NCBI GenBank assembly: GCA_024641655.1
Contig: JAHECR010000009.1
Coordinates: 1-64,000, forward strand
Origin: Acidimicrobiaceae bacterium
GTDB taxonomy: Bacteria > Actinomycetota > Acidimicrobiia > Acidimicrobiales > UBA8592
Direction: 5' to 3'
DNA length: 64,000 bases
The translations under genes and the position numbers were made by a program. Shown in pieces: positions 34,436-41,465 of this stretch. Position 1 is the stretch's first letter, and every line of letters starts with the position of its first letter. The notes under the pieces are model-generated. The model saw only the letters and a program-made list of their open reading frames with translations. It made no database searches and was not told where the DNA came from.

Positions 34436-34717
34436 GGGGCGTTAACCGACCCTACCAAGTTCCAGCGACAGCTCACTCGAATCGCGTCTTGTAGCATCGG
34501 TCGATCTGGCGGATCGGCGGCCAGGGGATCAGGGTGAGCTGAGCTACGTTCGGGCACGATGCGGCGGAGTAAGTGTTCGACTGCGCTCCGGCCGGGAGAC
34601 TTCCGAGGATGACCTTGTTCCGCCACGAGACGCATCGAACCGACGATGAGAACGGTGCCCTCCTCACGGCACCTGCTGATCGACCGATCGTCGAGACGAC
34701 GTTGCGGGGATCTGGGC

Positions 34718-37700
34718 ATGAACGCTGATCCCCGGAGCGTCCCCGACCTTCGGAACGCCATGTCGCTGCGCCGACACATCCCGGCAATCGCTGTCGACTG
34801 GGAGCTCGCGACGCCAGCGCAGCGGTCTCGACAAATCGACGGAACACTCGTGTTCGCCGACATCTCAGGGTTCACCGCGCTCTCGGAACGCCTGGCGCAA
34901 CGCGGCAGGATCGGAGCGGAGGAGCTCGTGGAAACGCTGAGCCGGGTGTTCGGTGCCATGCTCGAAACTGCCGCCGGGCGCGGAGGTGTGCTTCTCAAGT
35001 TCGGGGGCGATGCGCTCCTGTTCCTCTTCGAAGGAGCCAGCCACGCTCGGCAGGCATGTTGCGCTGCGGTGGAGATGCGCTCGGCGCTACGCGAAGCCCA
35101 GGCAGTCCCGACCTCGGTCGGTAGGCTGGCCCTGTCGATGTCGGTTGGCGTCCACACCGGACCCGTTGACTTGTTCCTCGTCGGCGCGCCACACCGCGAG
35201 CTGGTGGTCCTCGGTCCGGCCGCAACCGCGGTCACCGAAGCGGAGGGAGCCGCCCAGCCCGGCGAGATCCTGCTCAGCGCCGGCGGGGCGGAAGCGCTGG
35301 GCCTGCGATTTTCCCGCGACCGCGGGGACGGACGCCGGGTACTCCGCTGGGCGAAGGCACCAGACCCGCCGACCGGTCGGCGCCACGAGGAACCCGTCGA
35401 CCGCAACGTCCTTGTCCGGCTGTTCCCACGCACTCTCGGATCCGTGCTCGAGCTCGGCCCACCCGACCCGGAGCATCGCGTTGCGACCATCGCCTTCATC
35501 CGCTTTTCCGGTACCGACGCCCTGCTCGCCGAAGGCGGGCCCAATGCCGTTGCCCACGCGCTCGACGAAACGCTGCGCGTCGTGGAGGAAGCGTTCTTGG
35601 CCGAGGGGGTGACCCTCCTCGCGGTCGATGTCGACAAGGACGGCGGAAAGGTCTTCGCAGGCTCGGGCGTGCCGCACGCGAGCGAAGACGACGAGTCGAG
35701 CATGCTACGCGCCCTCCGAGCGATTCTCGACAGCGGTTGTCCCCTGCCCCTCCAGGCCGGCGTGAATCGCGGGCACGTGTTCGCCGCCGAAGTCGGCACC
35801 CTCAGCCGAGCGGCCTACTCCGCAATGGGTGACACGACGAACACAGCCGCACGGATCTGTGCGAAGGCGCCGCCCGGCCATCTCTATGCGCATCCGGCCG
35901 TCCTCGAGCACGCGAACCACCTCTTTCAAACCGAACTTGCAGGGCCCTTCGAATTCAAGGGCAAGGCCGTCCCCCAGGTCGTGTATGACATCGGCTCCGA
36001 GGTCGGTCCCCGGCGCCCCCACGGCAACGATGAACGGCCGCTGCTCGGACGCGAGACCGAGCTGGCGACAGCACGCGCCGCTGTTGCTGCGGTGGCCTCG
36101 GGAGCCGGTGGCGTCCTCACGATCGTCGGGGTCACCGGCATGGGCAAGAGCCGGCTGATGCGTCAGGCCCTCTCTGAGTTGAGCAGCTCCGCCATTGTGC
36201 CAGTCCGCGCCGAGCCTTACGGCTCGACCAGCCCGTATCGCATGTTCCGCGACCGGGTGCGGGAGCTCCTGGGAGTCGAGCGGGGCGATCCGGCGACGAT
36301 GAGCGACTCACTGCTGAGAGGCGTCGAAGCGCTGGACGCCTCGCTCGTGCCCCTCGCTCCGCTCATCGCCGAGGTCGCACACGTCGAGGTGCCGACCACG
36401 CCGGAGGCCGATGCCATCGACCCCCAATTCCGCCCCGATCGAACCGCTGACGTCGCGATCGCGTTGCTCGAAGCGGGCCTTCAGGGCCCGATGGTGCTCA
36501 TCGCCGAGGACGCCCACTGGGCCGACGAGGCGTCAAGCCTCCTCCTTGGAAAGCTCGCCGACGCGTGCCGGTCCCACCCTTGGCTGCTCGTCGTTGCCCG
36601 ACGGGGAACCGAACGAGGGTTCACGCCGCAGTCAGGCGAGACCATCGAGCTAGTCCCGCTCGACGACGACACGATCACCGCGATGATCATCGACGCAACC
36701 CAGACCACGCCGTTGCGACCCCACGAGATCGACGGCCTGGTCGCCCGCGCCGGGGGCAACCCGCTGTTCGTGGAGGAGCTGGTCCGAGCGATCCGGGAGG
36801 TCGGCTCGCTCGAGGCGGTGCCCGAGTCGCTCAACGCTGCGATGGCCGCCCAGGTGGATGCGCTCGATCCGGTCGCGCGGCGCATCCTGAGTTACGCATC
36901 CGTCCTCGGTCGAAGCTTCCGTCGGCGGACGCTGGACGCGGTGCTCGAGCGTGAGGAGCTCGTGCTCGACCCGGCAACGGCCGAGCGGCTGCAGGCATTC
37001 TTCGACCCCGAGGGCAACGAACGGCTGCGTTTCCGCAACGCCCTCATACGTGACGTCGCGTACGAGGGCCTCGCCTACCGCGTTCGCACCCGCCTCCACC
37101 GTGAGGCAGGCGAGGTCCTAGAGACCATGTCCACCGACGTCGAGGCCGACGCCGACACCCTCTCCGGCCACTTCTGGCGGGCGCAGGACCATGCCCGCAC
37201 GTGGCGTTACGCACGCCTCGCTGCCCAACGTTCGGAGCGTGCATTCGCGAACACCGACGCCGCTACCCACTATCAACGGGCCCTCGAGGCGGCCCGGCGG
37301 TTGCCCGACATCGGCGACGGCGAGCGAGCCGAGGTGTGGACCAGGCTCGGCGATGTCTCGGAGGTCGCCGGGTTGTTCGACGGTGCGCTCGACGCGTTCC
37401 GGCGCGCGTCGCGTCTCACCAGGGACCCGGTGGGCCGCGCGGAGCTGTTCCTCAAGCGAGCGCGTGCGCGCGAGCGAGCCGGTTCGTTCTCGAATGCACT
37501 ACGCGAACTCGCTTTTGGCCGACGCGAGCTCGAAGGCGTGGACACCCCGGAAGCCGGGGTCATGCGCGCCCGCCTCGCGTCGTTCGGCGCGATGGTTCGT
37601 TTCGGCCAGGAACGCTTCAGCGATGCTCGCACTCGTGCCGAGAACGCCGTCGAGCTCGCGCGACGAGCCGGCGCGCGAGCCGGCCTCGCCGAGGCCCTGG

Positions 37701-38527
37701 CGGCGCTCGAGATCTCTCTGTTGTACCTCGGGACACCCGCCGACGGTCGCTACCTCCGGGAGGCCGTGGCGATCTACCGCGAGCTTGGCGAGCGCCGCAT
37801 GGCGGCTCGATCGGAGAACAACTTGGGCAACGTCCTCTTCCACATCGGCCGGTGGGCCGAGGCGGTCGAGCACCTCGAACGGGCGCGTGCCGAGATCGTT
37901 CGGCTCGGGGACATGGCCGGCGCGGCCACCACTGCGTCGAACCTCGGCGAGATCCTCCTCATGAGCGGACACCTCGGCGAGGCCGAACCGTTCCTACGTG
38001 AGGCGGTCCGGGTGCTGCGTTCCATCGGCTACGTCGACGGCGCTGCGTACGCAGAAATCCAGCTCGGGCGTCTCCTGGTCGAAACCGACCGCCTCGACGA
38101 GGCGGAGCGGCTCCTCACCCGGACGATCGCCGAGTTCGAGGCGCTCGGGCAGCTCAGCAGCGTGCTGGAAGCCATGGTCGCCGACGCGGAACGTCTCATT
38201 CGACTCGGTCGCGCCGACGAGGCGCTGGCGCGCCTCGCGAAGGGCGAAGCACGTGCGGGTACCGAGGCCGACCTCATCGGCCCACGCCTGGCCTACGTCC
38301 GCGGCATGGCACTTGCGCAGCTCGGACGTTTCGCCGAGCTGGAGCCGGTCATCGCCGCCGGAGTCGACACCGCTCGCGAGCAGGGCCTCGCTTTCGACGA
38401 GGCCCTGCTGGTCATCTTCCAAGCCGACCATGCCGCCCAGATCGGGGTCGAGGTCGATGCCACTGCGCTGGACCGGGCCCAGACCATGCTGGCCGGTCTC
38501 CGCGGAGCCGCTAGCGCAACATCCTGA
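34718..38527 (+). CDS. tandem class III cyclase domains fused to AAA/STAND ATPase and TPR repeats
   Basis: This giant protein has about 1269 residues. Residues 40-200 form a first nucleotide cyclase homology domain with both metal Asp residues (Asp48 in FADISGF, Asp98 in LKFGGDA). Residues 250-410 form a second. The second lacks the metal Asps (FIRFSGTD, DKDGGK) but keeps the substrate and transition-state residues in GDTTNTAAR, which the first lacks. An ATPase follows, with Walker A GVTGMGKS near residue 475, VLIAEDAHWADEAS, and then about 400 residues of TPR-like repeats. Family members are signal-transducing ATPases; cyclase activity is possible through one composite site. ATG 34760 is an alternative start. 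Confidence 0.85.
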   Translation: MNADPRSVPDLRNAMSLRRHIPAIAVDWELATPAQRSRQIDGTLVFADISGFTALSERLAQRGRIGAEELVETLSRVFGAMLETAAGRGGVLLKFGGDALLFLFEGASHARQACCAAVEMRSALREAQAVPTSVGRLALSMSVGVHTGPVDLFLVGAPHRELVVLGPAATAVTEAEGAAQPGEILLSAGGAEALGLRFSRDRGDGRRVLRWAKAPDPPTGRRHEEPVDRNVLVRLFPRTLGSVLELGPPDPEHRVATIAFIRFSGTDALLAEGGPNAVAHALDETLRVVEEAFLAEGVTLLAVDVDKDGGKVFAGSGVPHASEDDESSMLRALRAILDSGCPLPLQAGVNRGHVFAAEVGTLSRAAYSAMGDTTNTAARICAKAPPGHLYAHPAVLEHANHLFQTELAGPFEFKGKAVPQVVYDIGSEVGPRRPHGNDERPLLGRETELATARAAVAAVASGAGGVLTIVGVTGMGKSRLMRQALSELSSSAIVPVRAEPYGSTSPYRMFRDRVRELLGVERGDPATMSDSLLRGVEALDASLVPLAPLIAEVAHVEVPTTPEADAIDPQFRPDRTADVAIALLEAGLQGPMVLIAEDAHWADEASSLLLGKLADACRSHPWLLVVARRGTERGFTPQSGETIELVPLDDDTITAMIIDATQTTPLRPHEIDGLVARAGGNPLFVEELVRAIREVGSLEAVPESLNAAMAAQVDALDPVARRILSYASVLGRSFRRRTLDAVLEREELVLDPATAERLQAFFDPEGNERLRFRNALIRDVAYEGLAYRVRTRLHREAGEVLETMSTDVEADADTLSGHFWRAQDHARTWRYARLAAQRSERAFANTDAATHYQRALEAARRLPDIGDGERAEVWTRLGDVSEVAGLFDGALDAFRRASRLTRDPVGRAELFLKRARARERAGSFSNALRELAFGRRELEGVDTPEAGVMRARLASFGAMVRFGQERFSDARTRAENAVELARRAGARAGLAEALAALEISLLYLGTPADGRYLREAVAIYRELGERRMAARSENNLGNVLFHIGRWAEAVEHLERARAEIVRLGDMAGAATTASNLGEILLMSGHLGEAEPFLREAVRVLRSIGYVDGAAYAEIQLGRLLVETDRLDEAERLLTRTIAEFEALGQLSSVLEAMVADAERLIRLGRADEALARLAKGEARAGTEADLIGPRLAYVRGMALAQLGRFAELEPVIAAGVDTAREQGLAFDEALLVIFQADHAAQIGVEVDATALDRAQTMLAGLRGAASATS

Positions 38528-40196: not shown

Positions 40197-40994
40197 ATGA
40201 GTACCACGACGAGCGATTCAGGGGGGCCGTCGATGCCGGTCGACATCGACGCGTTGCGCGATGAGGTACGCCTCAAGTACGCAGCCGTCGCTGTGGCCCC
40301 TGATGACGACTACCACTTCCACACCGGACGCGCCGCGGCTGAGCGATGCGGCTACGACATGGGGGCGGTCGATGATCTTCCAGCGGTCGCGGTCGAGTCC
40401 TTCGCCGGGGTCGCCAACCCCTTTGAGCTGCGTGCACTTCGACCTGGCGAGAAGGTGGTGGATCTCGGCTCGGGCGCGGGCTTCGACACGTTCTTGGCTT
40501 CCCGGGCCGTCGGGGCCGGTGGCTATGTGGTCGGCGTGGACATGACCGACGAGATGCTCACGAAGGCGCGCTCCACCGGCGCCACGATGGGTGTCACCAA
40601 CGTGGAGTTCCGCGCCGGTTATCTGGAGGAACTCCCAGTAGACGATGGGTGGGCCGACGTCGTGATCTCCAACGGGGTGATCAACCTTTGTCCTGACAAG
40701 GCGGTCGCATTCAATGAGGCGTGGCGGGTGTTGCGCCCCGGAGGGGTGTTGCAGTTCGCCGACATCGCCAACGGCCGGCCCGTGCCCGAAGAGGCGATGC
40801 GCCAGATCGACTTGTGGACCGGTTGAATCGCCGGTGGCCTGCCGTGCGCAGGCTGGAAGAAGATGCTCGACGAAATCGGGTTCGTCGATATCGAGATCGG
40901 GCGACCGGTCGACACGTTCGGGGGCGCGAGCGGCGAAGCCAACGCCAGAACCTTTGACGTCCATGGCTACCCGTTCCGCGCCCGCAGACCCTGA
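40197..40994 (+). CDS. arsM: ArsM-like methyltransferase with in-frame UGA at a conserved Cys position (candidate selenoprotein)
   Basis: Residues 1-209 read as an arsenite-methyltransferase/UbiE-like enzyme: RCGYD near 51, the SAM site [44 protein letters not shown] and LRPGGVLQFADI. After DLWTG comes TGA at 40824-40826, then the same frame continues as IAGGLPCAGWKKMLDEIGF to GYPFRARRP and a final TGA at 40992-40994. This is the family's normal C-terminus, in which DLWTG is followed by Cys. With read-through the protein has 265 residues and position 210 would be selenocysteine. A 6-bp hairpin begins 11 bases after the UGA. Without read-through it would be a 209-residue truncated product or a pseudogene. 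No sel genes are in the window. Confidence 0.7.
40837..40853 (+). promoter_or_regulatory. Candidate bacterial SECIS-type hairpin after the in-frame UGA
   Basis: GCCTGC at 40837-40842 pairs perfectly with GCAGGC at 40848-40853 around a five-base loop CGTGC. The loop is 17-21 bases downstream of the UGA and contains G residues, within the range expected for SelB-binding elements in bacteria. Extra pairing of CC (40831-40832) with GG (40855-40856) could extend it across an internal loop. A hairpin of this size can occur by chance in GC-rich DNA. Confidence 0.5.
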
Positions 40995-41382
40995 CCGCGC
41001 AAGCAACCGCCCAACCAGTGTGAATGCTTCACCGACGCGGCACGACCGGACCGGTCGACGCTCCCATGGCATCGGTGCGTGACCGACGCCGGAGTGCGCG
41101 CTCAATGAAGAGTCTGACGAGCGACCCGCAACGTTGGACCCGTTCAGCCTGGTAGCGGCTCTCGGGTCGGTGCCCATGGACCATCGGCCTGCCACGACCA
41201 GTACGGAACCGGGTACACCGTGCAGTGTGCCTCCGAGCGGTGGTGGGTCACACTGAGCCGGTCGCGATTGAGCGCGTCGTCGACGTCATCGCATCGTGAC
41301 CAACTGTGACCAATCTGTGACCACGGCACCTGGTTGACGCGACAGGCCGAGGGGCGGCTGGACTCCGCTGGTCAGCCGTTGT
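40995..41382. other. Intergenic stretch without a recognisable gene
   Basis: This 388-base stretch separates the ArsM-like gene from tRNA-Leu. Small open frames exist but none reads like a protein. The only structure I see is a set of three near-identical GTGACCAA elements at 41296-41324. Confidence 0.6.
41296..41324. repeat. Three GTGACCAA/C direct repeats near tRNA-Leu
   Basis: GTGACCAA at 41296-41303 and 41306-41313, and GTGACCAC at 41317-41324, are spaced by 10 and 11 bases, about one helical turn. Their role is unknown; protein-binding sites on one DNA face or a short decayed repeat are both possible. They lie 3' of the tRNA gene, which is on the minus strand. Confidence 0.5.
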
Positions 41383-41465
41383 GCCCGGGGCGGGACTTGA
41401 ACCCGCACTCCCTTACGGGAAAGGGATTTTGAGTCCCCCGCGTCTGCCACTTCCGCCACCCGGGC
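41383..41465 (-). tRNA. tRNA-Leu (anticodon CAA)
   Basis: On the minus strand a complete 83-base class II tRNA can be folded. It has acceptor arms GCCCGGG and CCCGGGC, a D region GTGGCGGAAGTGGCAGAC, an anticodon loop CTCAAAA giving CAA for UUG codons, a variable arm CCCGTAAGGG, and a T loop GGTTCAAGTCC. No CCA is encoded. It lies 244 bases upstream of fabD on the opposite strand. Confidence 0.93.

Follow-up and report, generated by a model that had tools for sequence, protein, structure and literature searches.

A probable selenocysteine at an arsenic-ligand position of an ArsM-like methyltransferase from an Acidimicrobiaceae bacterium

The stretch of DNA analysed here (64,000 nucleotides from an Acidimicrobiaceae bacterium, hereafter the window) carries on its plus strand a gene for an ArsM-like SAM methyltransferase whose reading frame is interrupted by one UGA, which raises the questions of how this codon is read and what the resulting enzyme would methylate. 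The gene (40197–40994) starts with the ATG at 40197 and terminates with the TGA at 40992–40994, encoding 265 residues when the internal TGA (40824–40826, residue 210) is taken as selenocysteine, in the context DLWTG-U-IAGGLP and followed by 55 further codons (residues 211–265). The initial annotation had described this single interruption with its 55-codon tail, whose codons are indeed conserved, and had placed the UGA residue 50 positions after Gly160 (GGG, 40674–40676), in agreement with the codon positions. The same spacing, given there for Cys174 and Cys224 of CmArsM, is also right, as an alignment with solved enzymes puts residues 160 and 210 at the places of 174 and 224.

The encoded protein belongs to the class I SAM methyltransferases (Methyltransf_31, 2.3e-27), and a predicted model obtained with 48 aligned sequences (mean pLDDT 87.4) agrees with this domain match in having the ArsM fold and its SAM-binding domain. 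One reading of the gene is that of a canonical arsenite methyltransferase which merely has Sec for Cys224. It is in line with the best NCBIfam match (NF008823, arsenite methyltransferase, E 1.1e-65), with a Foldseek search of the predicted model against the PDB, in which the first 13 matches are ArsM or human AS3MT, with the name arsenite methyltransferase given to UxxG Sec proteins in the part of PMC13188914 available to us, and with the ArsR-type regulators that are common neighbours of these genes (14 of 150 ORFs). However, the NF008823 match amounts to 221.8 bits, below the curated cut-off of 263, and the alignment places Val72 (codon 40410–40412), Gly160 and Sec210 where the solved arsenic methyltransferases have Cys72, Cys174 and Cys224. 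These three cysteines are the arsenic ligands of the solved enzymes, and PDB titles among the fold matches name C72A and C224A mutants; two of the three ligand cysteines are therefore gone from the window protein.

A scan of 84,980 species genomes yielded 554 candidates for relatives of the gene, and the best 80 of them were retained. Among these 80, Val72, His40 and His42 (the latter two within a His40-Phe-His42 motif, 40314–40322) are each found in 80/80, as is Gly160, although partly by choice, since the search patterns contained VISNGVIN (the stop codon lying outside the pattern). Five residues past Gly160 a cysteine special to the family, Cys165 (40689–40691), is present in 78/80. The early remark that Gly160 makes the substrate uncertain is thus upheld. 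The expectation that relatives have Cys at the UGA holds in part: Cys210 occurs in more distant relatives only, namely canonical ArsM and the members of a Cys branch within the same clade, whereas the closest ones carry a stop codon.

A distinct clade also emerges from a tree of 58 chosen rows (20 of them from the best 80), inferred by a quick method that left 18 of 55 inner branches open. In this tree an SH-aLRT of 99 separates the Gly160 group from the Cys160 group, which comprises ArsM, with one change at position 160, while the states at position 210 (Sec, Cys and one Gln) need four changes; rows L182–L184, which did not match the pattern, do not enter these state counts. The Cys forms of the order are nested within the Sec forms, and in the nine such proteins read (nine genomes) an extra Cys lies six residues before position 210 in 8/9, with Cys165 kept in only 2/9. 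Going by record titles, the clade is spread over Actinobacteria and Alpha-, Beta-, Gamma- and Deltaproteobacteria. Further, among the 12 best domains of NF041537 type from 396 genomes of the phylum, none of which reaches the NF041537 cut-off, Gly160 is present in 12/12 and TGA at position 210 in 8/12, which indicates that the Gly160 clade is wider than the family of the window protein. ArsM Sec fusions are reportedly the subject of Haft and Tolstoy (2025), and judging from these sequences the known fusions may belong to the Gly160 clade. Taken together, the lost ligands, the subthreshold score and the separate branch make a canonical arsenite methyltransferase an unlikely description of the gene.

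Two further proteins were encountered among the relatives. A distant Gly160 ArsM-like protein (L036, at G096:C15:22492-23079) has a TGA in AWAGUVSGAL and adjoins a sigma-factor-like frame; it is possibly a second Sec methyltransferase family. In another genome a Cys-containing relative (L023, G076; SNGALNLS, AWAGCIAGA), whose C-terminal part is cupin-like, stands directly before the Sec gene.

The gene neighbourhood points in more than one direction. In the window the gene is solitary, flanked on one side by a minus-strand gene and on the other by a tRNA gene (41382–41465, minus strand). Neighbouring frames of the relatives were picked with a codon-position filter, and the counts are given without a background control. 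At 28 actinobacterial loci (150 of 160 neighbour frames scanned) they include rhodanese (24), ArsR-type HTH (14), MFS (13), metallo-beta-lactamase (8), DsrE (5) and TauE (2) proteins. At the remaining 52 loci (148 of 217 frames scanned) the sole clear theme is SelB (6) and the SelD-type AIRS domain (4). An ArsR-rhodanese protein is encoded directly upstream in 7 and nearby in 13 of the best 80 of 554 relatives. Besides the ArsR-type regulators, arsenic genes are absent from the 25 commonest of the 113 and 193 neighbour families. Individual loci are worth describing. At L120:2596-12757 the Sec gene lies amid an ArsR-rhodanese protein, two metallo-beta-lactamase/rhodanese proteins, DsrE and TauE, and by eye DsrC-like and sulfide:quinone-reductase-like frames are also near. 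In L066 and L090, selD follows the Sec gene by 22 and 31 bp, respectively, with selB upstream (and selA too in L090). The window itself holds at 34646–38527 (plus strand) a large cyclase-like protein which by eye has ATPase and repeat parts, and class III cyclases occur near the Sec gene in 5/80 loci (best 80 of 554). A fusion-like frame of 1385 codons running into the gene at L130 overlaps long frames on the opposite strand and was taken as spurious.

We turn to the reading of the internal UGA. Alignment of homologues, proposed as a check in the initial annotation, evidences exactly one in-frame stop codon, at residue 210, in all of the best 80 of 554 relatives, with TGA in 77 and TAG in three. 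A first search for kin in 99 genomes had yielded TGA in four further full-length relatives and one partial relative, of 66–69% identity (the contigs G023 and G047 of that search apparently correspond to L078 and L108 among the 80), and homologues on plasmids (147 records) are each below 60% identity, with no close named copy there. Were the UGA a true stop, the 209-residue product would work alone and the tail would be unused. Yet the tail columns W220, G228, D239, F241, G246, E247, A250, G257 and F260 are invariant in 48 aligned proteins, and in the TAG copies the anticodon of tRNA-Sec has changed along with the codon (see below), so that termination at this position is very improbable. The locus displays what is expected of a bacterial selenoprotein gene, an in-frame UGA with conserved sequence on either side.

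A second line of evidence concerns the RNA downstream of the UGA. The 6-bp hairpin with a G-containing loop that had been pointed out 11 bases past the codon is confirmed and covaries in relatives: its arms (40837–40842 and 40848–40853) enclose the loop CGUGC (40843–40847), and a G-U pair between 40836 and 40854 extends it to 7 bp, so that the SECIS-type element spans 40836–40854 (plus strand). The 6-bp arm begins 11 nt and the loop 16 nt past the UGA, and the fold of the window sequence has −14.9 kcal/mol for 48 nt. According to the bacterial SECIS rule as given in the available part of PMC13188914 (a hairpin 16–37 nt past the UGA whose loop has a G among its first two bases), the window hairpin qualifies. 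This simple rule is passed by 68/81 sequences, as compared to 37–56/81 in 20 sets of synonymous shuffles; since shuffles pass so often, the rule is weak evidence and we have used covariation instead. Moreover, the lowest-energy fold is another hairpin in L057 (45 nt), the nearest relative, and in L097, and the SECIS fold prediction for L089 gave no hairpin.

Covariation was analysed in the 61 sequences with Cys217 (the window and 60 of the best 80 relatives). The pair at positions 18 and 26 joins the third base of codon 215 to the second of codon 218; it is G-C in 42/61 and U-A in 19/61, with no exception, such that Leu CTG goes with Ala, and Leu, Ile or Val codons ending in T go with Glu or Asp. 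Ala218 is encoded by GCA in 36/42 cases, as against 197/1842 among the Ala codons of the same genes. Overall, 95.6% of cells are paired (59 distinct rows) versus 17–47% when one side is slid by 1–3 bases, and the covariation score was reached by 0/500 shuffles. The loop CGTG is present in 61/61 members of this group and in 19/19 sequences of the Arg217 group, where it lies two nucleotides later and in another reading frame; L125 (Leu217) has no CGTG loop.

The third line of evidence comes from the Sec machinery. The genome search for selA, selB, selC and selD suggested at the outset has recovered all four above curated cut-offs in the source assembly (92.78% complete, 5.72% contaminated, a draft of 121 contigs): tRNA-Sec (selC) with 63.5 bits (cut-off 47) and anticodon UCA, selB with 303.3 bits (cut-off 242.25), an adjoining selA with 386.2 bits (cut-off 267.9), and selD with 371.4 bits (cut-off 125), itself carrying an in-frame TGA within HGAGUGCK, which corresponds to the known UxxK Sec site. 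The selC, selA/selB and selD genes lie on three contigs other than that of the methyltransferase, which is to be read with the contamination of the assembly in mind. As weak tRNA-Sec and selB matches appear in 14/14 control genomes, such matches were counted only above cut-off.

The three TAG copies belong to Modestobacter (L097) and Blastococcus (L115 and L122), and for them we compared the codon with the anticodon, examining the genomes of eight relatives (three TAG, five TGA) and the own genome. The best tRNA-Sec match has the anticodon CUA in 3/3 TAG genomes and UCA in 6/6 TGA genomes, own included; weaker second tRNA-Sec matches above cut-off occur in 5/8 relatives' genomes (L173–L178). 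This joint change of codon and anticodon, seen by sequence comparison, gives the strongest evidence that tRNA-Sec would read the codon. The occurrence of selA, surveyed across the window's order (298 genomes, 179 of which have selA overall), is in accordance. TGA rows are found in 15/298 genomes (12 full-length with E <1e-100, two pieces at contig edges and one distant relative, G096), and full-length forms without a stop (E <1e-100) in nine. selA is present in 15/15 TGA-form genomes versus 2/9 genomes with full-length Cys forms (G084 and G143; Fisher p 1e-4), a count in which any TGA row is taken as a Sec form whereas Cys forms needed E <1e-100. When the same E-value limit is applied to the two groups, the figures become 12/12 versus 2/9 (Fisher p 3e-4), and both p values ignore kinship.

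These observations bear equally on the reading of the UGA by near-cognate suppression or a reassigned code rather than as Sec, for which we found no supporting point. Given that the tRNA-Sec anticodon follows the codon, that the Sec form accompanies selA, that the hairpin is conserved and that the gene itself ends with TGA, we regard it as highly improbable. Least probable of all is a pseudogene or sequencing error turning TGC or TGT into TGA, for which a single base in a contaminated 121-contig draft would suffice, as the stop codon lies at the same place, with no other in frame, in all 80 relatives (best 80 of 554) and recurs as TGA in the four full-length and one partial relatives of the first search; we therefore reject it.

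The preferred reading is that of a gene for a stand-alone class I ArsM-like SAM methyltransferase in which SelB and tRNA-Sec very probably read the UGA at 40824–40826 as Sec, directed by the hairpin at 40836–40854. The Sec assignment put forward in the initial annotation is supported in this respect by the machinery, the conserved stop codon and the covarying hairpin. In such an enzyme, Sec210 would act as an active-site nucleophile or soft ligand which holds or activates a soft substrate beside SAM and, with both further cysteines of the arsenic site absent, Cys165 or His40 and His42 would perhaps assist it. As substrate we would expect a chalcogen or metalloid species of soft character. Given the loss of the thiolates, a canonical As(III) site is unlikely, and the sulfur-type neighbours lead us to lean, tentatively, to reduced sulfur or selenium (sulfide, persulfide or selenide), whereas the fold, the name of the family and the regulators of ArsR type point to trivalent arsenicals, which rank next as a possible but doubtful substrate; something else altogether appears improbable. 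By extension, it is conceivable, though rather doubtful, that the Gly160 clade is a widespread family of non-arsenic selenoenzymes methylating reduced sulfur or selenium, in which a selenolate replaces the three-thiolate site and whose Sec codon has moved to UAG, together with the tRNA, in Geodermatophilaceae.

A Sec at a metalloid-binding place without an obvious redox task would make this family a test of the benefit of selenium beyond redox catalysis. Natural Sec/Cys pairs occur within the clade, the Sec forms accompanied by selA and the Cys forms mostly without it, and together with the three TAG forms these pairs make that benefit directly testable. In addition, names such as 'arsenite methyltransferase' may be wrong for these proteins.

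In respect to known systems, Sec at the UxxG site of ArsM-like proteins is already known, and in that the window gene is not novel. The part of PMC13188914 available to us lists 'Arsenite methyltransferase, NF008823, UxxG' as 'Experimentally verified', citing Fomenko 2007, while the accessible portions of PMC5029168 and PMC2398784 count 41 such selenoproteins in 39 organisms and list the Sec-containing family in marine data, respectively. A literature search of open-access papers, made with no phrase for the clade itself, found no paper on the Gly160 change, and the Gly160/Val72 arrangement, the TAG forms of the gene and the sulfur neighbours do not figure in the available parts of PMC13188914, PMC5029168, PMC2398784 and PMC5330540. 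The Sec arsenite methyltransferase WP_011987699.1 (NF008823), as it appears in the excerpt of PMC13188914, is likewise ArsM-like with one Sec in UxxG (U-I-A-G in the window protein), but the window protein scores below the NF008823 cut-off. A similar situation is found with ArsM_AhpD_UU (NF041537), ArsM_DUF2284_UU (NF041536) and MTase_UXPK_star (NF047649): their methyltransferase part aligns with window residues 16–235, and all 48 proteins scanned match the three profiles. The window protein, however, has one Sec and is without the AhpD, DUF2284 or UXPK-star part, reaching 195–215 bits where the cut-offs are 460–575; its NF041537 match extends no further than position 227 of the 345-position profile, with 214.9 versus 510 bits. 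The solved arsenic methyltransferases (4fr0, 4kw7, 5evj, 6cx6 and human 8xt7) are alike in fold, with residue 210 at Cys224, and differ in having Cys72 and Cys174 where the window protein has Val72 and Gly160, as well as in their longer chains (>299 modelled residues). Finally, the TAG codon and CUA tRNA-Sec of L097, L115 and L122 are the same as in the UAG-Sec of Geodermatophilaceae, for which the part of PMC5330540 available to us names formate dehydrogenase, UGSC and AhpC; compared with the genes named there, the methyltransferase of these three genomes would be a further UAG-Sec gene.
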